Positions 2,601-20,201 are shown, counted from the first letter of the stretch. The stretch: DNA of 21,067 nucleotides from Candidatus Desantisbacteria bacterium CG1_02_49_89 (GCA_001871075.1 MNUP01000070.1:1-21067), one strand, 5' to 3'. Notes: a model not told the origin generated them from the sequence alone. Translations and numbers: made by a program.

Positions 2601-2602
2601 AT

Positions 2603-2627
2603 AACGTGTCACGTGTAAGGTGTAAGG
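2603..2627. repeat. Heptamer array of the ACGTGTA type
   Basis: About three and a half copies of a 7-base word (ACGTGTC, ACGTGTA, AGGTGTA, AGG). The word is closely related to the GTAACGT triplets inside the giant gene at 8344-8364 and 14002-14022. Confidence 0.7.
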
Positions 2628-2741: not shown

Positions 2742-2794
2742 CCCACCCCGACTTTCTGTCGGGGCGAGGTCTCGCCCGCGCTGAAGACGGGCGG
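2742..2794. repeat. Double-hairpin element, copy 2
   Basis: CCCCGAC...GTCGGGG, then GCGAGGTCTCGC, then CCCG...CGGG. It has the same plan and the same GAGGTCTC junction as copy 1. TGACAACT words lie on both sides (2732-2739 and 2795-2810). Confidence 0.65.
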
Positions 2795-2810
2795 ACAACT
2801 GACAACTGAC
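2794..2810. repeat. Heptamer array of the GACAACT type
   Basis: GACAACT repeated twice, then GAC. The same word occurs just left of the adjacent double-hairpin element. Confidence 0.6.
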
Positions 2811-2852: not shown

Positions 2853-2880
2853 CATTCAGCATCTAGCATTCGGCATTCAG
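2853..2880. repeat. Heptamer array of the CATTCAG type, four units
   Basis: CATTCAG, CATCTAG, CATTCGG, CATTCAG: exactly four units of seven bases with a few substitutions. Confidence 0.75.
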
Positions 2881-2890
2881 CAGATTTTAC

Positions 2891-2911
2891 ACATGACTCA
2901 TGACACATGAC
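2891..2911. repeat. Heptamer array of the ACATGAC type, overlapping the arsM stop codon
   Basis: ACATGAC, TCATGAC, ACATGAC. The arsM stop (TGA, 2898-2900 on the minus strand) lies at the start of the second unit, so the last codons of arsM (SHVS) are built from the array. Confidence 0.75.
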
Positions 2912-3716
2912 TGCCTTTAACTGCGTAGACCTTGATGCTGAGGACGTTGCGGGCGGCGGCTGAAATATCTTTCCCGGAGATCTTTATAACCTTCATTATT
3001 GCCTGGGCAGTGGGATCATTCGCAAGGCAGTCGATCGGAAAAACAGATTCGTCTTTTATCTCTATCCTGCCAAACCCCGCTTTCTTTATCATCCCCAGGT
3101 ATTCCTCTTTCTTCACAGCTCCGGATATGCAGCCCACGTAAGCTGCAACCGAACCCATTATGGCTTTGGGCAGGTTTTTAAGCAGGACTATGTCCGAGAC
3201 CATCATCCTTCCACCCGGCTTAAGCACCCTGAACGCCTCTTTAAAAACCTTTCCCTTGTCAGGCGCGAGATTTATCACGCAGTTGGAAATTATGGCGTCG
3301 ACGGAGTCGTCCTCAACAGGCAGGTTCTCGATCTCCCCGAGCCTGAACTCGACGTTCTTGTAACCGCCTTTCTGCGCGTTCTTCCTGGCTTTTGCCACCA
3401 TTTCCGGGGTCATGTCGATCCCGATCACCCTGCCTTTGGTCCCGACCTTTTTCGCGGAAAGAAAACAGTCAAAACCCGCGCCTGCCCCAAGGTCCAGGAC
3501 GGTTTCCCCTTGTTTCAGGGACGCAAGCGCGACCGGGTTGCCGCAACCAAGCCCGAGGTTGGCGCCTTCAGGCACAGAGCCCATTTCCTTGTCAGAATAC
3601 CCTACGGTCTTGCTTATCTTTTCCGCGGTCCCGCCTCCGCAGCAGCCGCAGCTGCTTTTCTGCTTCGCTATCCTGCCGTAACCCTTTTTTACTATCTTTT
3701 TCACGTCTTGCTTCAT
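2898..3716 (-). CDS. arsM: Arsenite S-adenosylmethionine methyltransferase
   Basis: Probable cytoplasmic enzyme that transfers methyl groups from S-adenosylmethionine to As(III), giving methylated and volatile arsenicals. It has 272 residues, typical for bacterial ArsM. Visible: a Cys-rich start (CGCC, 23-26); the ArsM hallmark [20 protein letters not shown] (40-59); Rossmann methyltransferase motif [14 protein letters not shown] (73-85); acidic strand IGIDM (98-102); motif-IV region [11 protein letters not shown] (140-150); and post-I segment [12 protein letters not shown] (164-175). C146 and C196 are 50 residues apart, as are the paired As(III)-binding cysteines known in the family, and C58 in GLGCG is a likely third ligand. 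The start is fixed by AGGAGG at 3725-3730. No arsR, arsB or arsC lies beside it, so it stands alone. Its 3' end lies in a heptamer array. Confidence 0.92.
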
Positions 3717-4195: not shown

Positions 4196-7100
4196 CTACT
4201 TAACCCTCACCCGGAATCGTATTGCCTTTGTCTCATTGATTCCGAGGGAACCGACGCGCCAGCGCAGGCCTTTCACGTTGCTCGCCCCTGAAGCCGGCGA
4301 ACCCGCGATCCAGGTTAAAAATGCGGTGTCGGTTGTGTAAGCCCAGGTCTCAGAGACAGTTATAGAATCCATGTTTACAAAGTTTACAAGGTTACAAGTC
4401 GAAGTATCAAAGGACCTTGTATCTACGACAATGTTGTTAATGGCAGTTTCAGTTCCAATATTTTTAATGTATATCGTGTATTCAACAGTGTCAGACTGCC
4501 AGAACCTCATCGGCATCGAACCTGTCTCGCCGGAACGTATGTTCATCTGGACCTTTGAAGTCAGGACTGTTGGCTTTGTAACCGTTTCCTGCTGCGTATC
4601 CGTCCATGTCCAGGAATCGGTCCTTGTAACCGTGGTCACGGGGTTTCCTCCCGACTTATCCCTGTAATACACTGTTTTGGAACCGGAAGACAGGTAGACT
4701 ATGGACGTGTTAGCCCACGTGGTTCCAGAAACTGAGAACGAACCTTTGGCCGATGTTGTCAGCAGTTGAACCGTATCATTATAGAGAACCGCGGTGTTTC
4801 CGAACCCGTCTCCTGCTTTTATGAACACAGGCGCCGTGCTTACGCTTGTTATCGTGAACGGTATGGTATTCGCGAACCTGAGAAAGCGGATAGTAACTGT
4901 CTCGGTTTGCGTATCAGTGGCCAGTGGCCAGTGGTCAGCAGTCAGCACGGGAGAACCGACGGCAAAGTCGCGGTAGTAAAAAGAGCCCACTCCGCTTGAG
5001 AACGTGATCACGGTAGTATTAGCCCACGAAATATCTGACACTGAAAATGAACCGGAACTGGAATTTGTGGACAGGCTTACCGTATCATTGAAGATCTCAT
5101 CCGCTCCGCCAGAATTCCCTGCCGCGGCTGCCGTAACCTGCGGGGACGTATCCCCTGCCCTGATCCTGAAAGAAGGAGACACGAAATCCAATTTAGTTGC
5201 GGTGAACGTGAGTGTTGGGCTTCTGCGGAGCATCATATCATCAACCCAGCATGTCCCGGAAAAACCGCCGTCTGTCACAACACGCTGCACAACGCCTGTG
5301 TATGTTGTCGAGTTCCAGATAATAGACCTGTATTCCCAGGTTTGCAGGTCCGGAGTGCAGGTAAGGTTGGGGTCATCTGTAACGTCAGCTAAGTCTATGT
5401 AACAGCTGCCCGGGTTGTGCTGGGACCAGAACCAGGCGCTGTATAAGTAATTGGAATTCTGCTGGACCGGAACACTTGCCTGTGTGATGGAAGCGCTGGG
5501 GCCGCCTGTTTTGCACATAATTGAAAAACTGCCTGTATGGGTCCGGGCTGAGTCCCTGAACTGGTTTACTGCCATGTTCCAGCCTGAAGCAGAAATCCCT
5601 GCGCCCAACTCAAACGACGGATTATTTGTTGCCATCATCACGTTTTCGTATATTGTGTTCCCGCCGCAGGCCGCGCAAACCGTGTCCTGGCCCGCGTACC
5701 CTGAATAGATAGTAAAAGTGCACATACCATTAGAACCAGTTGGTTGGTTGGTTGGTTGGATAGTAACTGAGTTGCCTCTTGAGGCGGCAAGCGTCACCGT
5801 TTTGCCGGCAACCGGGAATCCGTAAGTATCCGCGATAAAAACAACAGCGGTGGCCACGGACGTTCCGTTGTCAGCAGGGACCTGATGGGGATTGAAAGTT
5901 ATGTATGATGCGTTCGCGTTCGCTCCCTGCGCGACCACTGTTTCGATCTGCGTGTCCCCGGTAAACGACGCGCGGTACGCGGTTATTATGTAGCTGCCTG
6001 TATTCGGGTTTTTGTAATAAACCGTAACCTCTCCGCTTTGCAAAGTCACGGAGGTCGTGTTCACCCAGTTAAACCTGTCCACGGAGAAATACCCGGTCCC
6101 TGAGTTCTGGAGACCGAAGGTGTTGTTGTTTGTCACGTCCTTGTTACCCACGCCGTCCTGCGCCTGGATGGTTATTTCAGGAGTAGGATTGTTCACCGTA
6201 GTAGTGCGCGCCGGAGTGGTTATTTTCAGCCTGTTCGCGGTAAAATATATATTCGCCCTGCCGGTATAGCTCGCGCTGATCTCGTCCGCGCTCAGCGCGC
6301 GGTTATAAAGCCTTACTTCATCAAGCGTTCCCTGCATCTGCCAGCCGCCTATGAAAAAGTGCTCCGCGGGCGCGGTGTCAATTACAAAAGATGCCTGGAC
6401 GCTTGTGGCTCTCAGAGTGTTGTCTATGTAGGTCCTGCCGTAATTCCCGTCATAGGTTGCCACGATATGATGCCATGCCCTGTCAGCCACGCCTTCCACC
6501 TGCATTGTGAGATAATTGGAACCGCCCTTCGGGTTTATCACGACGTAGACCGCGCTGCCGCCTTGCCGTAAAGCCCAGGGAGCGTCATCATACGGGTACC
6601 TTTTACCCGCGACCATCATCCATCCCTTGGACCAGGCGGGATCAGGAACAAGGTTCGCCCACACCTCTATGGTGAGCGCGCCCGGGATCCGCAGGCTTGA
6701 ACCGTTGCCGCAGTCAGCGTAATCGCCGGTCCCGCTCAGCTGCATGGCTGAGCCGAAAGCGGCGTCCGGAAAGGAAACCCACGCGGGGCTGCCGACAAGG
6801 CTGCCGTTATTGCCGTTGCCTGAAAGGTCGCTGGCATTGGAGTCAAGGTGCCAGATGCCCACAGCCCCGTATTTGTCCGTGCCCCGCCCTATTGTTTTCC
6901 CCCCGCAGAACGCGGTAATGGTATCCAGCCCTACGTAGGAGGAAAAGACCGTGAAAGTGCATTGCCCGCTTGCGCTGGTTGTCTGGGGGTTGACAGTCCC
7001 GTTAACGCTGTCCCTGATAGTGTCCGAATTGCCCCTTGTGGTCTGAAGCGTCACTAATTTGCCGGATAGCGGTATCCCGAAATAATTCTCATTCACGGTA

Positions 7101-10100
7101 ACCACCACCGTGCACCTGGACGAATTATCCGCCGGGACCAGGTATGGATAGAACGTAATGTATGAAGCAGTTTCCCCTGCCACAGCCGCGGTTATGGTCT
7201 CGGTTTGTGTATCTGCGATAAGCGATAAGCGATAAGCGGTCAGTCTGGGATTGCTTATGTTGCCGTCCCTGTAGTAAAAGATCCCGGCGCCTGAGCTCAG
7301 GTAAATGTTGGTGGTATCAGACCAGGGGCTGATATTGACCGAAAATTTCCCCTGGGCTGAGGAAGACAGGAGCGTGACCGTGTTATTGAAAAGTAATACC
7401 TTATTCCCGGTATTATCCTGCGCCTCAACCGCGATCGAAGGCGAAGGGGCGTACTGGCTGGAAGAGAACGGAGGGGTCGTTATTTTTAATTTCGCGGCGC
7501 TCGCGCTGAAATTGACCGCGTCTATCTTTATGTCGTCAAAATGGACGTGAGAATCTTCCGTCTTCAGGCGGAACTTTGAATACACCGCGGGGCTGCCCGC
7601 GGGCCTTGCCCACTCCGCGATAAAACTATTGTTCAGCCACCATCTTACTTTTGACTGGGTGACATCTATCCTGACCTCATACCATTTGTTGTAGGTTATT
7701 GCCTCGCCCAGCTGCTGGGTAACGGAATATACCGTCCCTCCTGTTTTCTGCCTGATCTCAAAATAGTTCGGGCCGAAGGTGGAGTCGTTGTTGCGCACTG
7801 ACCATTCGAGGAAGTTGCTGGCGCTGCTGTAAAAGATCAGGTGCGCCGCGGTGGCTCCGCCGTACCCGTTCGCCATCTTTAACCGGACATAGAGCGTCCC
7901 GCCTGAGAATTCCAGCAAGGTCTCCGAGATACCAGTGCCATCCATGTCCCCGCTGTATTCATTGTTTTCCACCTGCCAGGTCCCTGCCAGCGCGGCCCAG
8001 CCTGAGGCGCCTCCGGTAAAATTCGCAATAAGGGTGTCGCCGATGGTCTTTGTGTCGCAGACCGCCTTTACAGCCGCGTCCCCCGCGGAAACCGAAGAGA
8101 TAGTGAATGTCGCCTGCCCGTTGGAGTCCGTGATCTGCTGGACTGCCTGGATAGTGTCTGTATTTCCCCTGTTCGTGTAAAGCGACACGTTCTTCCCTGA
8201 CAGCGCGGCGCTGACATCGCTCTTCACGCTTACCGTGACAGTGCACTTTGCCCCTGTTGAAACCACCGGAGGATTGAGGACAAGGTAAGAAAGGGTGCTG
8301 CTTGCGACCGCGGCCGTGATGGTTTCTGTTTGAGTGTCAGCGAGTAACGTGTAACGTGTAACGGTTAAAACAGGGCTGCCGACCGTCAGGTCCTTGTAGA
8401 AGAAAACTCCCGCGCCTGAGCTGAACCGGATGACGGTCGTGTCAGACCAGGGATCATCGTTCAGAGAGAATTTCCCGTTCACTGAAGAGGAATATAGTAC
8501 CGCGGTGTTGTTGAAAAGCAGGTCCTTGTTCCCGCCGCTGTCCTGCGCCTCCACTGTGACCTGGGACGAAGGCTTGAACTGATTCACGGAAAACGGAGGT
8601 GTTGTGATCTTCAGCCTTGTGCCGGCCGGGCTGAAATTTACCGCGCCTATTTTCAGGTCATCATAATGTGTGTGCGAAGAACCTGCTTCCAGCTGCAGTT
8701 TTGAATACACGGCCGCGGAGCCTCCGACAGGACGCGCCCATTCCGCTATAAACCTGTTGTTCAGCCACCACCTGACTTTTTCCTGCGTAACCTCTATCCT
8801 GACCTCATACCACTTATCATACAGGATCTCTTCCCCGGCAGGCTGGATAGACACATAAGGAATTCCGCCTGCGACCTGCTTGATCATATACTGGTCCGGG
8901 ATCCACGTGGAATCACTATTATATATAGCCCACTCAAAGAAATTATTCGGGTCTTTGTAGAAGATCATATGGGAAGACGTGATGCCGCCGTAACCGTTCA
9001 TCATTTTTAGCCGGATATAAACAGTTCCGCCCGGGAACGCAAACGGCGTCTCTGCTACGCCGTCCGCGCCTGCGTCGCCGCTGTATTCATTCGACTCGAT
9101 CAGCCAGGTCCCGCTCTTCGCTGCCCAGTTCAAAGAACTGCTGAAATAATCAAGCAGCGTGTTTGAAATTGTGGCTGAATCGCAGGCGGCCTTTATTGCC
9201 GCGTCCCCCGCGTATATTGAGGAAACCGTGAAGGTTGCCTGCCCGTTCACATCAGTCAGCTGGCTTGCCGGCTGGACAGGATCAGAATTGCCGCGGCTTG
9301 AATAAAGAGTGACTGTCCTGCCTGTAAGTATTCCGCCGGTGTCGCTTTTCACGCTGACCGTAACCGTGCATTTTGAAGTCCCGCCAGCGGAAACTACAGG
9401 CGGGCTCAGGACAAAATATGAAGGGTTCCCGGTTATCGTTATTGTCTGCGTGTCCGCGATAAGCGACAAACGATAAGCGGTTATCACGGGGCTGCCAGGG
9501 TTGCTGTCTTTGTAATAGAAAGTTCCCTGGCCTGAAGAAAGATAAATATTCGTCGTGTCCTGCCATGAAACGCCGTTTATTGAGAACCTTCCTGTTGCTG
9601 AAGAGGATAAAAGCGTAATACTCTCATTGAAAATCACGTCTATGCCACCTGAATTTCCCCTTGCCTCCACCGAAACCGGCAGGGAGGCGGTATTCGCCGG
9701 GATCGCCTGCGCAAACGAGGTTATTTTCAGTCTCGTAGAAATGAAGCTCATTGTAGGTATCCGTTCAAGCCGGACCGCGTCAAACCAGGCTGTCCCGTCA
9801 GGGCTGCCATCCGTGACGCAGCGCAAAATCGCCGTGGTTTCGCTCCCGCTGTACCATGTTCCCTGCAGAAGCTCCCAGGCACTTTTCCCCTGCGTCGAAT
9901 ACAGCGCGCAGTCCGAGCCTGGCGAGGGGCGGTCATTCATGTCAAAATACGCCTGCCCGGAGGATGAAAATGAATTAAAGATCCTGCCGGAGAGCTTGTA
10001 GGAAGAGCCGGGGATTATTTTGGCGACAGAGATCCGCGTAGACGTGTCCGAACCAATAAAGGTTGATCTCAAAGAATAATTACCGGAGTAGGACCTGTCG

Positions 10101-13100
10101 GAAGAACGTATATGGTTCAAGCCTTCGGCCCAGCCTGAAGCGTCGTTGCCTGTCCCGGTTTCGAAGGATGGGTTCGCGACGATGTTCTCCAGGATGGCGT
10201 ATACCCCGTTGTAAACAGCGCTTATCATTTCATTCCCGGCGTAATACGAGGAGATCGTGAAGGTTGCCTGGCCGTTGGCGTCGCTCACAGCGGATCCCGG
10301 GTTTACCGTTCTCAGGATGGGATTTTCCAGGACCAGGCTCAGGGTCTCGCCGGAAACAGGAAAGCCGGTATTGCTCCTGATCTCTGCCATGACAGTTGTT
10401 GTCGAAGCCCCGTTCGCAGCAAGCACCGGAGTATTTACCTTAATATATGAACAGAAGTAATTTGGCCCCTGGGTGTCCAGAACGGTCACGTTCTTTGCAA
10501 ACGCGCCACCGAACCACGCAACGCCTTCTTCGAGCATCCTCCAGTCAGTCAGGTATACGCCCGGCGTTTCAGGAGCTGTCATCTTTACTGTAAATGCCTT
10601 GGTCTCATTCCTCCATATTATATCGTCCTTTGAAAGGAACTGCCTGTTGAATGTGAACGGGTCAGCATCCCCGACCGCGCCCAGCTTATACGCCTCCGTG
10701 TCCGTCCATTCAAGATTCCCGTTGTTCAAAACCGTGACCTGTGCAAAATACTGGCAGCCCGCGTGCATAGTGTCGGGTATCGTATTATTTAAAAACTGGG
10801 CGTCCCTTGTTTCCGGAAGGTTAAAGAACTCCGAGTCAAGAAGCCCTTTCTGAAGGTACCTTTCCTTATTATGTTTCAGGCGCAGCAGGGTGTGGTCATA
10901 CCTTCCGCTCAGCCAGTCGTATAATACCTGCCTGGAATCCAGGAACGGATAGATGTTTTCGGACAGCCACAGGTTTTCAAAAGCTGATTTCATCCCCGGG
11001 ACCGGGGCTTTCAGGTCGTTGGTAATAATGGTATTGATCGAATTAAAAACGCCGTCCGCGAAAGAAGTATCGTCCGCGTAGTCGCACGCGGTCGCGTAAA
11101 CCGATCTTATCTGTTCCGCGTCCTGGATCCGCTCTGCCAGGTACCGCACCCTGTCTGACGCGTTGATAATGGTGTCAAGGCTGTCCTGGTTGAAACGGGT
11201 TGAAGGGCGGTAACTGTTGAAGGTTGCCAAAGCCGGATCAGCCAGGGCCAGCATCGCGCTCGCCTTGCTTGCGGGGCTTGGTATGTCCCTGCTGTAGTTC
11301 CCCCAGAAAGGGTCGTCCCAGAACAGCCACCAGTTCCAGGAAGCATTCTGCCCTGCCTGGCCATAGGTGGAAAGGTCATGTATCACGTAATCGGTCTCGC
11401 TCATCTGCCGTATCGCATTAGATAGGTCGTCCGATATGGAGCCGAAGAACTGGTACGAGAACCTGCGGCCGAAATAGTTCTCGCTCTCATTGTATGTCTT
11501 CGCAATGTCATCCAGGGACCAGGCGCACTCAGCGCCGAAGATCCTCCCGTAGTAACCGACGCCGTGCATATGGTCCCTCTCGTCCAGCCAGTCCGTGTTT
11601 ATCATCCCGTCCACATTCTGTTTCGTCATGCCGTACTTCGTGAGGGACTTGATGTTCTTGTTGCCGCGCCTGAAATTGGGGAATATGCGCAGCCACGCGC
11701 TTATGCCGGGCATCATCCACTGCCTTCGACCCGAGTTGGCTATAAGGTCCACGTTGGGGTACGATGTGCGGTCCTCAAGCGAATCCGAACAGTTATATTC
11801 CCAGTTCATTATTATCGTGTCCAGGGGCAGGGTCGGGGAGTCGGTCAGGATCTGGGGGTGCGCGATTATCGCGTCCATACACAGGATCACTGTTTCATTG
11901 TAAACGCCTTTTAGGGTATCGTATAATCTATTGACGTGCTGTATGAATATGCCGTCCTTGCCTATCTGGTCAGCCAGTTCCTTGGACTGGCCCGCGCCCA
12001 TGTCGTAGGCCTCGTCGCATCCTATGAAAAAGAACAAAGACTGGTTGAAAGCCGGGCAAAGCTCGCCGAAAAGGCTATCCAGCAAAGTGTATGAGCCGGC
12101 GTTGGCTATGGCGAATGACCAGGGCGACGCCGGCACTTCCGCGTACTGGTTATACGCGGGCAGGGACAGCAGGTTCGCCTGGTGGCCCAGCGATTCGAAC
12201 AGCGGGTAAAATTCAACATGCCGCTGTTTGGCGTAGTACGAGATATCCTGGACCTCTGCCGCGGTGAGCGGCCCCCAGCCTACCCCGATATCCGGATGGT
12301 TCGCGAAATAGAACGTCACCTCTATATACGGCTCGAAACAGTTCATCTTGTAATAACTGAAAATGTCCATCATCTGCTTCAGGTAATCCACCGTGGGCCT
12401 TTGCCCGCGGGATATGTCCTCGGACATGCCCCTGTACCTGACTATGGGAAAATCCCTTATCTTGGCGGCTGTAACCGTCTTGTTCTGCCCGCTCTTGTCA
12501 AGAAGCTGCCGCAATGTTACCAGGCCGTAGAAAAGCCCTGTGGAATGCCTTGCGGAAATTATAACGAAATTCGCGTCTTCAACTATTTCAAGGATGTAAC
12601 CTTCATCTCCTATACCCGGGTCAGCTTCAATGCCTTTCTGCTTGCATATCTGGTCGAATAGCCCATCCTGGGAAGGGATGCCGGCAAGTATAGAGTTGGC
12701 AAGCGCGCCTGTGTCAAAACCCGAAGTGACGGGCACAGTAACGCCGAAATAGGACTGGATATCGTCCCTTAAAAGATCCGCGGCGAGAATGTCGTCCGCT
12801 GAAGCTGAGGAACTGAGCACTATTTTCGTGTTCGCGTCTATAATGAATCCTCTTCCCTCGAACGGGCAGTACCTTGCTTCCTTAGGCTCGGGTATAACGT
12901 AGCCGGTGGACAGGATCCTGATATTATCCCAGTCTGTCTGGCCTGCTCCTGCTGAAGGCTCGCAATCCCCGAGCAGAAATCCGGTAAGTGTGGTCGTGTC
13001 CTTCCAGACATAGCCGCTGTCCCACACCAGCGCTCCTGTGGAGGAATCGTAAACAAGCATCTGAAAACTTCCGGTGTTTATCAGCGCGTCCACATCGTAC

Positions 13101-16100
13101 CAGGTCCCTGCTGATAGCGCAGGCCCTGATACCCTCTGCGCCCATGCCCCGCTCTGCTCGGTCCACAGAGAACAGGGGCCGGAATTCAGTATGAAAGCAA
13201 AGTCCCAGGTGCGCGCCCCTGCCAGGCGCGACTCGAGCATCTGGCTGTCCTGGCCGATCGTTACCGGCTTGAAGCTGTACCGCAGCCTTATGCCGTTCGG
13301 CGGGACAAAATAATCTGACTTGGTCTGGACCCCGTCGTGGTTCCAGGAGCCGCTGGCGTAAGTGTGGAACTGGCCCCCGCTTATGGACGCGCTGCCTGTT
13401 AAGCTCCATACGCCCGCGTCATCTTCATTCGGGCCGAACTCCCTCTGGAAAGACCAGACCCTCACGTCATCCCACCAGGTCTCAGCATCCCCGCGGTTCG
13501 GCTCAGCATCACCCAGTAAAAATCCGATCCCGCTTGTCGGCTCAATCGGGTATTCTGATGGGTTCCAGAAAGTATCTCCTGTATCCCTGTTCTTAACAAG
13601 GACCTTGAAACCCGCGCGTTTTATTGTTGCCTTCACGTAATACCAGGTGCCAAGCGTTATTGTGCCCGGGCTTGTCGCGCGCAGGACCCAGTTCGGGTCT
13701 CCCACGTCCTTCGTATATACCTGGGCATACTGGCTGTTAATGACCACGAAAAGGAAACGGTGATATTCCGCTCCGCCGATCCTGGACTCGAACATCTGGC
13801 TGTCCGCACCTGCCTTTATCGCCTTAAAACAGTATTCGACTTCAAGCCCGTCCCTGGGAACTAAGTAGTCCCGTTTTGTGCGGAACCCGTCCCTGTTCCA
13901 GGAGCCGCTGGCTGACGTGTGGATCGCGCCGCTTTCGATCGAGACGTTATTTATCCATACCCAGTCGGACATCTGAATGTTCTCGGTCTGGGTGTCAGCG
14001 AGTAACGTGTAACGTGTAACGGTTAAGACAGGGCTGCCTACGCTGTTATCACGGTAATAAAAGGAACCGAGGCCGTTCTTGAGGGTGATCACAGTGGTGT
14101 TCACCCAGTTCGTGTTGGAAACAGAGAAGGTGCCGGAACCTGAGCTGGTTGACAGCGTGACCGTGTTGTTAAAATTAATGTCCAGGTCTCCGGTATTATC
14201 CTGCGCCTCCACCGTTATCAGGGGCGAAATACAGTTCGGCGGAATGCTGAAAGAGGGAGTGGTAATTTTCAGCCTGGCGGCGATCACGGGATAAAAATAG
14301 AAGTTCGCCCTTTTATCAAAGCTCATCCTTATTTCAGTGTCGCTCAAAGCACGGTTGTAGATCCTGACCTCGTCTATGTAACCGTCGAAATACCTGTTCG
14401 CGCCGTTATCGTCCCTGCCGATCTGGACCGGCCCGCCGACATCCGGATTTATGGTCCCCTGTATGGAAAACGTGTTCATAAGAACCCCGTCTTCATATAT
14501 CCTGATGGCGCTGCCGTCATAGGAACCGGCGTAATGGTGCCACTGGGTCAGGCTTTTCGCGGAACTATATTGCGCCGCCACCCACTCCGAACCGTAAACG
14601 CAGACATAAAAATAAAGGTCTTTTGTCCCCTGCCACGGATGCAGTATGTACGCGTCCCTTTTACTGACAAGCATCCCGTACGAGTTCCAGTTGGGCGTGT
14701 TGCTTTTCGCCCACAGTTCGATGGTAACCGCTGTTGTATTATTCAGGCTCTGGGAATACGAAACTTCCGCGTAATCGCCTGTCCCGTTGAATTTCAAAGC
14801 TGAACCTGATGAAGCATTATCAGGGGCTGATGCCCAGGCAGGCCCGTAAAGCGCGCATATGTTCCCGTTTCCCGAAACATCCAGAGTATCCGTGTCAAAA
14901 TTCCATATCCCGGCCGCGCCGTATTTATTCACGCCGCGCGTTATCGTCCTCCCGGAGCAGACCGCGAAGATCGTGTCATACCCTGCGAACGCAGAGGTTA
15001 TCGTGAAAGTGCATTTGCCCCGGATATCCGTTGTCTGCGTGTTGCCTGCGGTGCTCCCAACGCTGTCCCTTATCGTGTCAGAATTTCCCCTGGTGGTTTG
15101 TAGCGTCACCAATTTATTGGTGATAGGGAATCCATAGGTATCATTGATTGTAACAACAGCTGTGCACCTGGCAAAACCGTTCGCCGCGACCCGGTAAGGG
15201 ATAAAGGTAATATATGAAGCGGTCTCATTCACTCCCTGCGCAGCTATTATTTCTGTCTGTGTGTCCGCGATAAGCGATGTGCGATACGCGGTTATCACGA
15301 AAACGCCGGTATTCGGGTTCCTGTAGTAAAAGACCGCGCCGCCTGCGGACATCGTGATGACGGTTGTGTTTATCCAGTTTATCCTGTCAACCGAAAAAAC
15401 CCCGGAGTTTAAGGAAGAAAAAAGCGCGGCCGTGCCGTTGAAAGTAGCGTCTTTCACGCCGAACTCGTCCTGCATCTCTATTATCACCCCTGGCGAGGGA
15501 TTGCCCTGCGTGACCGCGAACGGAGGCGTCATGATCCTCAGCGCCGGGCGCACGAAGCTTATGGCGGGTACCCTCTGCAGTTTTACGTCGTCGAACCAGG
15601 CGGTCCCCCTTGGGCTCCCGTCAGTGACACAGCGCACCTGCACTGAAGTGTAAGCGGCGCTTGGCCAGCTGCCTTCCAGGTATTCCCACCTGTTGGCGCC
15701 ATTCGTCGACACGAGGTTGGGCTCTCCGGCTGCATCCCCCAGGTCATAGTAAGCCTGGCCCTGGGTGAGCGAGTTGTATATCCATCCTGACAACCTGTAA
15801 ACGGAGTTCCGCGCTACCAAGATGGTGCCCGAATAACTCGAGGTCGCTGTTTCAGCGAAAGTGGACCTTAACGAGTAAAGCCCGGTGTGAAGCCTGTCAG
15901 CGTAACGGTTGTGGTTCGTGCCTTCGGCCCAGTCAGCCGCGTTGTACCCGCTGCCGTCCTCATAGGAAAAATTGGGCGCTATGTTAAGCGTAATCGTCGC
16001 GCCAAGGCATATCACTACCACTGAATCGTCCCCGGTGTAAGGAGAGCGTATCAGCCCTTCGCATTGCCCGTACGCGTCTGTCAGCCCCGGCTGCACCACG

Positions 16101-19100
16101 GTGTCATAAAGGGAACCGCGCGAGGTCACGATCGTCACCTGTGCCCCCTCAATGGGTACGCCGTATCCCCCTTTCACATATATGGCCACGGTGCAGTTAT
16201 TCAACCCGTCAGCAGGCACAAGGGACGTTGAAACGGTAAAATAGGAAAGGGTTTCGGAGCGGGTTTGGACAGGGATAAGCATCACTGTCTCCACCTTGCT
16301 GTCAGGAGCGTCAACAATGTTCAGGTCTATCCTTCCTGACCCGTTTCCCACAGGGGTATTCAGCTGGACCTTTGCGAGCTTCCTTGTCCCGTGCACCCAC
16401 GCGCTGTAATCGCAGGGAGCCGCGCTGACGGTGAAAGTCACGTTATTCGTGCCGGTATTGACGCGGGTGATGAACCAGTACCAGTGTTCCAGGCGGGAGG
16501 ATTCGCCTGTGGAAGCCCAGCCTGTGTCTGAATTGAGGACGCTGATGGCGCGCGGCACCCCATTGACGTTTATTGCGCAGGCCGGGGTGTTAAATGCCAC
16601 GGAGGAAGAGCATAGTATTATGAATTCGGGCTTTGAATAAGTTGTCGGGACATTGATCTGGGCTATGCCTGAAAAGCCGTTCGCCCTCGAGTCAGAATAG
16701 CTGGTAACGGTTATCGTGGCTGAATTGCCCGGGAAATAAACCAGCGTGTCCTGGTTATTCGCCGGCGTTATGGGGTCTATGACCTTGACCGCCCTGGTGC
16801 ATCCCGGCTCAGAGTAAAGGTTATACGTTGCGGCGGTCGCTGTGTCATACCGGCATCCCATGATCACCGGACGGACAAGCTCGGTCTCAGGGAAAACCTC
16901 AAAAACAAGCGCTTCGTAAGCCCCTATCCTGAAAACAATGCTATCCCCGTAAAGGAACATATTGTTGTAAATATACCTGTACAGGTAGGTTATTTTGATA
17001 AAATGGTTCCCTGTCATCTGCCTGAACCCTATGGAAGAATTGAACGATATACTGATATTTTTTTCCTCAACGAACGGGTTGCGCACGAAAATGATCCCCC
17101 GCCCGCCTGCAAAATGGGAATATCCGTAAATCCACCTGTCCTCAGGGTCACCGAGTATCAGCCTTGTCTTGAAAAGGATGTCCTGGTTCTGCCTCTGCCA
17201 TTTCATAAGCTGGGCAAGGAACCCCCACCCGGGCGAGTCCAGGTAATTGTTGTTCACGTAAAGGGAGTTCAGGAGCGAGCCGCGGCACACAACCGTAACC
17301 GCGTCGTTCTGCCATGGCTCAGAGGTCTGGACATCCACTCCCAGCACTTCCTGGCCTGAAGGCGACAGCGACGGCCACATTTTGCACCCATCCCTGTACC
17401 CCGCGCATCTGCGCGTCGTATAGGCATCCTTATAATTAAGGGCGGGCACTATCCCGTACGGGTAGTCGTCCACATGGTTGCCGATTATGGAATCGGAATA
17501 CTGCAGCCACCAGGGGCTTTTGTTCCAGGTAGCGGTAGGCTCTGTCCAGAAATCAGGCTTATAATAGTGTATGGCGCGCAGGTTCAGCACGTACCTGTCA
17601 ATGTTCGCTTCCACACCGTAATCCCCGGAAAAATGGCCGTGTGTTGAGTTGTCGTGAGCGAAAGGCCAGAACCCGTCGAACTTGTTCAGGGACATATTGT
17701 AGGTGTTTATGTGGCTGAGGTCTGTCTTTATGAATTCAGCTCCATATTTCGGGCCTGCCAGGCACAGCATTTTCATCCAGCCCGTGCTGAACGCTTCGTA
17801 TCCCTGGGCCTCAGCCCAGTCATTGTCCAGCGCGAAGGGATAACAGGAGGAGGGTGACATCCACAGGCCCAGCCTGGTGTTCATCGCGTCAGCTTTTGTT
17901 TTCAGCCTTGAAAAACCCAGCGGGAACTTGCCGGTATTGATCTTCCAGATGGAGAATTTATCCGACCAGCCCGCGTCCACAAGAAAGGAATCAAAACTCG
18001 CGCCGTAGGGGTCAAAGAGCTTGGCCTTGAAAACGTCCATCAGGTCAAGGCATTCAGATTCGCTGAAATCAAACGGAAGCGTCCACCAGGTGCAGTAGCT
18101 GATATGGCAGTGAGGGGTAGTGTCCGGGCGGTTCTCGTCTATGTAATCTATGAAGGCGTTCTGCGCGTCCCCTATCGCCGAAACCCCGATCACGGCTTTC
18201 TTGGTCTGCGTGAAACCCTTCGGCATCACTCTTCCGGGGAAGTGTTTCAGCACTATAACGCTTCCCGAATAATTATTATACCCGGCTATGTATTCCAGGC
18301 CCAGGAACAGGTTGCCGCAGTAAATGGGGTCGCCGAAACCTCCGGCGGTTAGCGGCCCGCCTGATATCGTGAAGGTCTCGACCTGCGCGTCCATCAGCCA
18401 GGCTGTGTCAGCGCCTATTTCAACGGTCAGACCGAATTCCTTATTGGACGAAAAAACAGAATTCTCTCCGGTCAGCTTGTTCTTTACCGAAGTTGTCCTG
18501 ACCTTTCCGCCCGAGAAATCCACGGTCCTTTCAAGATAATTATTGCCCAGGACTATGTCAGAGGAATTCTGCGTCACGTATACGCCGCTGTTCGGAAGGA
18601 AGGTGTCGTAAACAAGTCTTGCGTCCAGCCAGTCAGCGTGGTCAGAAGCAATGCCGTCACCCGCGTCCGTGACTTTCAGCTTCAGCCATTTTTTCCCCGC
18701 GATAGAAACGTCAACAGTATCCGCGGCAGCCGCGCTGTCCATCACCGAGCTTGTGTAAAGAGTGTCCCCGTCAGCCACAACGTAGAACCTGACAGTGCCG
18801 TTCGGCACCTCGCTGTCCTTCCCAACCAAGCACCGGAACCTTTTGAAGGAAACCTTCAGGCTCGCGAGGTCAAATATGATCTCGGAATTCGCGTGCGTGC
18901 CAAGCCCGCGGGTGAAAGTCTCGCCTTTCACCGCGAGCGTGTTGCCTTCAACGGACCTGCTGATGCCCAGCGAGCCCCAGTCCTGCTGGGAGTGTACCGG
19001 CTCAACCTCATCCAGGTACATAAAATCCGGGGCAGGTGTTTCTCCGCCGTTCTTCAGGGAAACGGATTTATAGGTGTAGAATTTCCCTGAACCCAGTTCG

Positions 19101-20201
19101 TAGCACAGTTTCGCCCGCATTGCCGGAGAATCGCTTTTTAGAAGGAACTCCACCTGCCTGCCGCCGTCCGAAAGCGGGCGGATCGTGTAGGTATTGTACA
19201 GTAGGTTGTCGTTTGTAAGGGTATATCTGGGCAGGGACACGCCGTAATAGGTCTTGAAAGCAATGTCGTTTGCCGGCTGCGGAGAGTCCATACTGAACGC
19301 CATCCCCTGCGGATAAGGATTTACGGTCGCGCCGTAGGTTATGTACCTGTTGCCGTAATCCCCGCCCGGGGAATCCACCTCAAAGTAATAGGTATCCGAC
19401 GGGTTAACCGGCACCAGGTTGAACGCGAACGAATACCAACCCTTGCTGCCAATGGCTGAATAAGGAAGGGTTGCTGTGGCAAGCGCGGCCCCTTTTGAGG
19501 GCGGGGGGTCGGTGTATAATATGACATTAAGCGGGTCCTGGGGAGAGCCGAGTTTTTCAATCACTATGTCTATGCGGCTTACGTTTGTGACCGCAGGTCC
19601 TGTGATAAAACTCTGGCCCCCGTAGCTGTGGAAGTCCACTGTCGTGAACGCGGCGTCGTTCCCGGCAAGCGGATTGCGCATCTGAAAATGTATGCCGCCG
19701 GGATAGGGATTTGAAGTTGACCCGTATTCAAGATACTTGTTGCTCGCGTCGCCTCCAGCGCATTTCCATTCCATGTAATACGGCGGCGTATCTGTCAGGT
19801 TTAAAGCAGGCGAGAAGGAAAACGTATACCAGGCGTTGCCGCTGATCTCCGAAGGAGCAAGGGTGTCAGAACCTAAAAGGACGCCCGGGGTTGGCGGGGT
19901 GTCAGGATACACGTAAAGGACAATGCTTTCCGAAGGGCTGCCGATCTTTTCCAAATGCAGCCTGACTTCCTTCATCGTTGTGCCGACGGGCGTGAAGGAC
20001 TGCCCCCCCATACGATGTATTGTTCCCGTATATGGCGTCTAAGGCGGTCGCGAAATTCTCCTGGGACTGGTCAAACTGCCGTATGGCATGCAGGGCGGTG
20101 GTATCCCCTGTCTGGGTCTGGTCAGGGGAATCAACAGTGCCTGCCAAAGCAGCGCCGGTCGTTAAAAAAACCAAAATTAGGGACAAACATCTTTTTTTCA
20201 T
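4196..20201 (-). CDS. Giant secreted multidomain glycan-degrading protein (GH36-like and GH20), frame broken near the N-terminus
   Basis: One continuous frame of 5270 codons runs from 20008 to 4196. The ATG at 20011 cannot be the true start: it lies inside a conserved YGGQSF motif that recurs at full length about 128 residues later (SYGGQSF). In the next frame, 20201 to 20010 encodes a signal peptide (MKKRCLSLILVFLTTGAALA) and joins as ...NTSY-GGQSFTP if one G is removed from the seven-G run at 20003-20009. The restored protein has about 5334 residues. Domain order: signal peptide; two QSFTP sandwiches; NPCBM; GH36-like barrel; two triads; two concanavalin-like domains; GH20b plus GH20; NBR1-like Ig; five triads; one more repeat; DUF11-like tail. 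There is no LPXTG, dockerin or C-terminal membrane segment, so release or an unknown anchor is likely. A sigma70-type promoter lies just upstream. The likely role is extracellular breakdown of a GalNAc/GlcNAc-bearing polymer. Whether the break is real or an assembly error is open. Confidence 0.92.
4199..4580 (-). other. C-terminal DUF11-like domain of the giant protein
   Basis: Residues about 5208-5334. It begins after QETVTK and contains WQSDTVEYTIYIKNIGTETA, a typical DUF11/'conserved repeat' opening, and ends INETKAIRFRVRVK. Such domains are common at the ends of long surface proteins. No sorting motif follows. Confidence 0.6.
4915..4948. repeat. In-frame heptamer array, CAGTGGC type
   Basis: CAGTGGC, CAGTGGC, CAGTGGT, CAGCAGT, CAGCAC. 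In the giant protein it encodes the stretch LTADHWPLATD of the seventh 110-residue repeat. Confidence 0.7.
5739..5760. repeat. Tetranucleotide array (GTTG)x5 inside the coding region
   Basis: Five GTTG units encode IQPTNQPT in the last Big_1 domain of the giant protein. One unit gained or lost would shift the frame of the last 1.5 kb of the gene. Confidence 0.8.
7215..7239. repeat. In-frame octamer array (GCGATAAG)x3
   Basis: Three perfect GCGATAAG units, then CGG. It encodes TAYRLSLIAD just before DTQTET of the fifth repeat in the giant protein. Confidence 0.8.
8344..8364. repeat. In-frame heptamer array (GTAACGT)x3
   Basis: GTAACGT, GTAACGT, GTAACGG. It encodes TVTRYTLL before ADTQTET of the fourth repeat. 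The same array occurs at 14002-14022. Confidence 0.85.
9456..9480. repeat. In-frame octamer array, GCGATAAG type with substitutions
   Basis: GCGATAAG, CGACAAAC, GATAAGCGG. It encodes TAYRLSLIAD of the third repeat, the same peptide as the perfect array at 7215-7239. Confidence 0.7.
10460..13985 (-). other. Concanavalin-like pair, GH20 hexosaminidase and NBR1-like Ig domain of the giant protein
   Basis: Two similar sandwich domains (about 13985-13440 and 13440-12905; shared SGSWN.DG..TK.DY and GFLLGD.EP) precede the GH20 part. The GH20b-type domain (residues about 2433-2583) ends with GYILEI...VIISARHSTGLFYG and LRQLL. The GH20 barrel opens with IRDFPIVRYRGMSEDISRG, matching the family's D.P...RG...D.SR start, and carries the catalytic pair D2729-E2730 in FIGCDEAYDMG (codons at 12011-12016), where Asp assists the substrate acetamide and Glu is the acid. 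A helical stretch of about 150 residues follows, then an NBR1-like Ig domain (about 10790-10475) with MHAGCQYFAQVTVLNNGNLE and PGVYLTDWRM. Known GH20 activity is release of terminal GlcNAc or GalNAc, or lacto-N-biose; which one applies here is unknown. Confidence 0.8.
14002..14022. repeat. In-frame heptamer array (GTAACGT)x3, second coding copy
   Basis: Identical in its 21 bases to the array at 8344-8364, 5.6 kb away. It encodes TVTRYTLL before ADTQTE of the second repeat. Confidence 0.85.
15267..15291. repeat. In-frame octamer array, degenerate GCGATAAG type
   Basis: GCGATAAG, CGATGTGC, GATACGCGG. It encodes TAYRTSLIAD of the first repeat. Confidence 0.55.
16890..19040 (-). other. NPCBM domain and clan GH-D-like (GH36-like) catalytic region of the giant protein
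   Basis: NPCBM (residues about 388-530) shows the family core GLGTHANSEIIFDL and a closing DHADWLDARLVYD. A beta-sandwich then leads into a barrel (to residue about 1104) with FLVDAGWSDKFSIW, FPLGFSRLK, LGLWMSPSS and EFIKTDLSH. These match the 'D.GW', 'LWM.P' and 'K.D' strands of GH27/GH36 melibiases, where the Asp after Lys is the nucleophile: D827 here (codon 17720-17722). I cannot identify the acid/base with confidence. The expected substrate class is an alpha-galactoside or alpha-N-acetylgalactosaminide. A divergent clan member with another specificity is possible. Confidence 0.65.
19245..20012 (-). repeat. Tandem pair of QSFTP-type sandwich repeats at the N-terminus of the giant protein
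   Basis: Two units of about 128 residues. Each starts YGGQSF, continues with a hydrophobic strand ending EK[IL]GSP, a YxDxPP segment, a 'W/GWYSF.F' strand, and ends 'YGxTxNPYPxGxxFxM...NDxAF'. Such units occur in surface proteins that carry several adhesion modules. The match between unit 1 and unit 2 shows that the codons before 20011 belong to the same protein. Confidence 0.8.
20003..20009 (-). other. Seven-G run that breaks the giant reading frame
   Basis: On the coding strand TAT GGG GGG G CAG TCC. With six G the frame reads Y-G-G-Q-S-F from the signal-peptide side; with seven it shifts and stops at 19902. It is either a sequencing or assembly error, or a true slippage site able to switch the protein off. 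Confidence 0.85.
20010..20201 (-). other. N-terminal segment with signal peptide of the giant protein
   Basis: 64 codons from the ATG at 20201. MKKR is followed by a hydrophobic core (LSLILVFLTTGAA) and an ALA-G site at 18-21, a standard type I signal peptide. There is no lipobox. The rest, rich in Gln, Asp and Thr, leads into the first QSFTP repeat. Its ribosome site is weak (AAGAGA about 12 bases before the ATG). Confidence 0.8.

Follow-up and report, generated by a model that had tools for sequence, protein, structure and literature searches.

Arrays of unrelated heptamer words stand in place of ordinary codons at one site of a repeated domain in a Candidatus Desantisbacteria genome

How do unrelated, short iterated words come to stand at one and the same spot of a protein domain? 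The question is raised by a 21,067-nt stretch of DNA from Candidatus Desantisbacteria bacterium CG1_02_49_89 (GCA_001871075.1, MNUP01000070.1:1-21067; hereafter the window), which is contig C58 of a 2.48-Mb genome assembled in 150 contigs. The window holds a giant, secreted-protein-like gene in which NPCBM, Laminin_G_3, GH20-like and Big_1/Invasin_D3 domains are found together with eight copies of a 104-residue domain that ends in ADTQTET. A first-pass annotation of the window had proposed that unrelated words were written into a fixed position of this domain, just before DTQTE. Comparison of the copies of the domain across the genome shows that at least four unrelated word families stand at this site in place of ordinary codons, with its length unchanged. 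The gene and its domain copies lie as follows.

4196..20011, minus strand: giant gene, one open reading frame (ORF) of 5,271 codons (5271 aa), secreted-protein-like
15242..15547, minus strand: 104-residue domain, copy 1
13970..14281, minus strand: copy 2
9431..9736, minus strand: copy 3
8312..8620, minus strand: copy 4, tree sister of copy 5, with a different word
7187..7498, minus strand: copy 5
5933..6238, minus strand: copy 6, AYR-type peptide, array nearly decayed
4892..5200, minus strand: copy 7
4574..4882, minus strand: copy 8, plain TVTRTDSWTWTDTQQ, without array

Using Tandem Repeats Finder (TRF), an exact-period scan and, for the degenerate arrays, period-7 match counts, we located six arrays in the window that directly precede DTQTE on the minus strand; three words are represented, in four clean and two degenerate arrays.

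15267..15289, minus strand: degenerate GCTTATC-type array, encoding AYRTSLIA, 15 of 26 period-7 matches
14002..14021, minus strand: clean array (CGTTACA)2.9, encoding VTRYTL, in copy 2
9456..9478, minus strand: degenerate GCTTATC-type array, encoding AYRLSLIA, 16 of 26 period-7 matches
8344..8363, minus strand: clean array (CGTTACA)2.9, encoding VTRYTL, in copy 4
7215..7238, minus strand: clean array (GCTTATC)3.4, encoding AYRLSLIA, in copy 5
4915..4938, minus strand: array (CCACTGG)3.4, encoding ADHWPLAT, in copy 7

TRF, the exact-period scan and period-7 match counts thus agree with the earlier statement that iterated words occur in six of the eight copies. One of its details needed amendment: the words had been given as seven or eight bases long, but the clean GCGATAA array has a 7-nt rather than an 8-nt unit. 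Seven of the eight copies align without a gap at the site, array-free copy 8 (TVTRTDSWTWTDTQQ) being two residues longer. A plain site sequence near-identical to that of copy 8 is also present in three other giant genes. When synonymous codons were redrawn from genome usage with the peptide held fixed, each clean site array recurred with P ≤ 3.5e-4. Array-free copies of the site have ordinary codons and no period-7 bias (match fraction 0.256), and ordinary codon variation does not explain the arrays. A codon 'seed' with an intrinsic period of 7 was tested for in the ordinary copies and not found.

A domain profile search of the genome returned 96 matches. The majority have ordinary codons at the site, with a peptide like PVITVSRxGLxxDTQ. 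An exact array of 16-25 nt stands there in 10 of the 96, and these ten fall into five word families: ACACGTT (four), GCTTATC or GCGTATC (two), GCTATGA/GCTATCA (two), CCACTGG (one) and TTTCAGC (one); a second CCACTGG copy, at C91:6383, is imperfect. Elsewhere in the 104-residue domain, no exact array was found among the 96 matches. The spacing from T (or S) to D is ten residues in all in-frame array copies and in typical plain copies, and the array peptides all respect the A/V, L and D positions of the domain. The AYR-type copies look like one array at successive stages of decay.

When a domain tree was built without the site (85 columns; many forks unresolved), the word families were found scattered over it. 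Words differ between the sisters C138:517 (GCGTATC) and C21:17383 (GCTATGA), which have support of 99/93 and are identical at 482 of 622 DNA positions, and between the sisters C58:7187 (GCTTATC) and C58:8312 (ACACGTT; support 98/95). In a third pair (support 99/89), C116:5761 carries a GCTATGA/GCTATCA array and C116:3205 is plain. At the DNA level, the final two domains of four giant genes can be aligned without indels across the site although their words differ, the first of the above pairs being the closest. Because sister copies differ in word, or in word versus none, without a change in length, we conclude that the words replaced older sequence; tree and DNA alignment together uphold the proposal that unrelated words were written into one spot of the domain.

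With respect to the nature of the domain, no Pfam family was found at a useful score, none of the Big or Invasin models matched any of eight members at E up to 1, and the nearest immunoglobulin (Ig)-type match was fn3_3 (0.07, in one member). The domain appears to be beta-rich in a low-confidence AlphaFold model (pLDDT 49.5). We take the array site to be a loop because the sequence there is variable. A profile made from the domain alignment is weakly similar to camelid VHH chains (the best chain has an E of about 1e-4, but its best single stretch one of 0.006); the array site falls on the complementarity-determining region 3 (CDR3)/J region. We regard this similarity as a lead only.

Are such words confined to the domain? 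Words of the same kind had also been reported from the intergenic DNA of the window, and they are present at 2602-2912.

2602..2625, unstranded: intergenic array, TAACGTG (= GTAACGT) word family
2794..2810, unstranded: intergenic array (GACAACT)2.4
2853..2882, unstranded: intergenic array, CATTCAG-like words
2892..2912, unstranded: intergenic array, CATGACT-like words

TAACGTG, GACAACT and CATGACT recur elsewhere far more frequently than their reversed-word controls, whereas CATTCAG shows no excess elsewhere over its own. Array statistics were taken from a 739-kb sample of the genome, a non-random one in which contigs with domain copies or GTAACGT hits were deliberately included. Exact period-7 arrays of at least 18 nt number 81 in this sample and 1 in Markov-1 DNA; period-8 arrays number 31 and 0, respectively, period-14 arrays 14, and other short periods are few or absent. 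About 50 distinct canonical words make up the pool, the commonest ones accounting for a minority of arrays. GTAACGT (canonical AACGTGT) is among the commonest, its 20-mer GTAACGTGTAACGTGTAACG occurring nine times in the genome (reversed control, 0). Outside the domain, the sample contains ACACGTT, the commonest site word, at 31 places, and its reversed word at none; rarity elsewhere, which would have marked the arrays as plain coding sequence, is therefore not what we see. (ACACGTT)3 occurs in this genome only and is absent from 289 other genomes, and array density is 110/Mb here as against 7/Mb, 15-fold fewer, in the only relative of the same order. The genome has thus seen a burst of short arrays that is specific to its lineage, with period 7 more frequent than period 8.

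The words are common to intergenic DNA and genes, at densities of 1.09/kb and 0.118/kb respectively, an approximately nine-fold difference that rests on a crude definition of genes as the longest ORFs. Words that carry stop codons on both strands are found almost exclusively in intergenic DNA (29, against 6 within genes), as would be expected under selection. Within genes, the first 50 codons hold 29 of 76 arrays but only 12.9% of coding DNA (p 2.5e-8), and the N-terminal arrays are often in apparent signal peptides, e.g. FYFQLSAFSFQLCRAE and LLFFTLHVTRYTAFAEG. Arrays also lie inside conserved enzymes, namely leucyl-tRNA synthetase (LeuRS), V-ATPase subunit A, HypF, a radical SAM protein and an AIRS-family protein.

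Alignment of some of these genes revealed how arrays sit in other proteins. In the radical-SAM gene, 65% identical to that of the relative, a 26-nt array replaces sequence with a net change of -1 residue, and a 31-nt octamer array accompanies a net gain of two. The catalytic subunit A of the V-ATPase has an insertion of ~27 residues that holds a AACGTGTC octamer array (L094 (C92):4212-4241) and is absent from the relatives found and from the aligned solved homologue. Compared with the aligned solved homologue, LeuRS is longer by about seven residues at one of its arrays and by about two at another. In the domain itself, one copy (1945-2211 on C116 (L084)) carries the fifth word, TTTCAGC, in an array at 1938-1953 whose site spacing falls short of that in the array copy C116:5761 by 14 nt, or two units. 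A stop is met at the end of this array, and about 610 codons with more domain copies follow in another frame. Judged by its length, the array has probably lost two units, a single case in one fragmented assembly.

What produced this distribution? We favor, as the more probable account, a burst of period-7 arrays from ~50 words that were copied into sites and then filtered by selection, copying from existing arrays being the likeliest mechanism. Words would travel by template switching: during replication or repair, synthesis would jump to an array elsewhere, or to a paralogous copy of the domain, and return, so that some 20-27 nt are overwritten. Of the results, selection would retain only those that preserve the reading frame, the length of the loop and residues such as T, A/V, L and D. 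Once established, an array may gain or lose whole units; since one unit is 7 nt, each such step would shift the frame, as at C116:1938-1953. Domain duplication and exchange between copies could then spread the arrays. Gene conversion, offered in the first-pass annotation, is plausible as a mechanism, one that we infer. Several points weigh against this account. The copying step is not itself observed. Outside the domain, the excess of GCTTATC, GCGTATC and CCACTGG is weak or absent, and these words may have a local origin. Exchange of part-domains could mimic word swapping, given a tree of 85 columns with many unresolved forks. Some housekeeping arrays (V-ATPase A, LeuRS) are insertions, not replacements, so that more than one mode must operate. 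Lastly, with the site taken as ~33 nt and the 96 sites as 3.2 kb, the ten site arrays exceed the roughly 3 expected at intergenic density, whereas the five word families do not.

Two alternatives stand level with each other, and we consider both unlikely. According to the first, a mobile array enters in frame (three units being 21 nt) and the old loop residues are deleted later. Insertions do exist, as the V-ATPase A (about +27 residues) and LeuRS (about +7) cases demonstrate; however, no intermediate with an array and a loop seven residues longer is present among the 96 domain copies, four word families all stand at exactly the ordinary length, and the sister copies have no indel at the site. 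According to the second, slippage within the loop copies a 7-nt unit over its neighbors, and the word grows from local codons. The plain copy C116:3205 (GCATCCC GCATTGG GCTTTCA GC), which is sister to an array copy, has 14 of 26 period-7 matches, and several site words are rare elsewhere, both of which fit such local homogenisation. Nevertheless, ordinary sites are without period-7 bias, and the words, ACACGTT in particular, turn up again at unrelated places in the genome, an outcome not expected from events that are purely local. Overwriting from the heptamer pool could also serve a function: the loop of an Ig-like surface domain with 96 copies might be diversified in this way and switched off by frameshifts, forming a word-based diversification and contingency system, an idea that we hold to be more doubtful still.

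A targeted hotspot, in which a dedicated enzyme writes heptamer arrays at such loops for surface-protein diversification or phase variation, has in our view only a slight chance of being correct. In its favor, array density at the site is about 3/kb (ten arrays in 3.2 kb) versus about 1/kb in intergenic DNA and 0.12/kb in coding sequence, a change by one heptamer alters the reading frame, and in one copy the frame is broken at the array. On the other side, arrays occur genome-wide, including in essential cytoplasmic enzymes, and five word families at the site are compatible with the neutral expectation of about 3. Y1 transposase and reverse transcriptase were considered as writers, and two family searches revealed no evident candidate. 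Y1-type transposase matches number ten in this genome (G000, several contigs) and three in the relative, and reverse transcriptase gave one partial match. Duplication of array-bearing copies can close the density gap, and targeting is therefore not needed: targeted writing at the site is not supported, and tolerance together with domain duplication suffices to account for the arrays there. Of the two terms that the first-pass annotation left side by side, 'targeted or tolerated', it is the latter that fits best, for arrays are enriched at the starts of genes (first 50 codons) as well and also lie in housekeeping enzymes. Finally, the notion that peptide constraint and codon bias make ordinary coding sequence look repetitive can appeal to the A/V, L and D positions kept by all array peptides, but it is refuted by the synonymous redraws, the most frequent word at the site is also dispersed widely over the genome, and we give it almost no credence.

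Several further observations concern the words themselves. Near-palindromy was examined as a property common to them and set aside, the distances being only modestly unlike those of all heptamers. Of 77 arrays inside genes, 1 has an inverted partner at a distance of up to 200 nt. Intergenic AATTATG arrays flank a near-palindromic core, approximately GCAAGGAATT..ATTTAAAT..AATTCCTTGC, often with inverted arms, at the following places.

L018:7681-7740, intergenic: AATTATG arrays and near-palindromic core
L095:15850-15930, intergenic: the same
L096:4770-4850, intergenic: the same
L019:3723-3790, intergenic: the same

This core is also found beside other words, e.g. ATCCTGG and GTGTCAAC. The octamer AACGTGTC has a core in common with the heptamer AACGTGT and occurs in several genes (L031, L036, L094, L095 and others), where it encodes CQRVNVST. 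Further dispersed short words (AATCACCGTAATCACTGTAATC, GTCATTGCGAG, TTTCCACGAAAGCAC and AACTCTGTAAACTTTG) are present at 1692-1728 of the window and in many intergenic regions of the genome.

How does this compare with known systems? The first-pass annotation knew of no description of the phenomenon, yet both heptameric repeats and repeat DNA lying in frame within proteins have been described before. Heptanucleotides are reported to outnumber other long repeats in the majority of the genomes surveyed (PMC4679880), and the heptameric repeats of Xanthomonas and Nostoc have been described in a paper that remarks on the lack of detailed literature on heptameric repeats (PMC4692102). Heptameric long simple sequence repeats (LSSR) and short tandemly repeated repetitive sequences (STRR), such as the cyanobacterial STRRs, TAACTGA in Beggiatoaceae and GGGAATC and GGGGAYT in Xanthomonas/Nostoc, are likewise dispersed short arrays of 7-nt units (PMC4679880, PMC4692102), mostly intergenic, lineage-specific and limited in genes by stop codons. 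TAACTGA arrays in genes were expected to be tolerable at the ends of proteins or where modules join (PMC4679880). In the published TAACTGA and GGGAATC cases one or a few words dominate each genome, whereas here ~50 coexist. The arrays described here are also frequent near N-termini and extend to housekeeping enzymes, and at one homologous site of a repeated domain several words have taken the place of other sequence. In Rickettsia, repeat DNA lies in frame within conserved proteins, according to PMC2229807, which cites Ogata et al. 2000. The Rickettsia palindromic elements (RPEs) and miniature inverted-repeat transposable elements (MITEs) treated there share with our arrays the tolerance of in-frame repeat DNA by conserved protein genes. 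However, RPEs are palindromes of 105-146 bp inserted whole, and here the word arrays are ~20-30 nt and often replace sequence; the RPE/MITE class measures about 100-150 bp with terminal inverted repeats, whereas the site arrays are 16-25 nt, without inverted repeats at the site. In the phase-variable simple sequence repeats of surface-protein genes, gain or loss of a unit shifts the frame and can switch the protein. The one frameshifted copy here, two units short, may have arisen in a comparable way; the arrays here have only about three units and are known from one assembly. Big_1/Invasin_D3 Ig-like repeats are also repeated beta-rich domains of large secreted proteins, and true Big_1 is present in the same gene, but the 104-residue domain lacks a useful Pfam match. 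In the part of the literature that was covered, we found no published example in which several heptamer words are exchanged at a single homologous position in a repeated domain.

The 96-copy domain provides a natural experiment, in which one site is seen with and without arrays and with several words in a fixed frame. Its comparison points to replacement over insertion and connects the words found between genes with the sequence of proteins. A warning follows as well: in genomes of this kind, parts of conserved proteins are encoded by repeat DNA. At this site nature has kept a record of proteins being rewritten by repeat DNA where they tolerate it.

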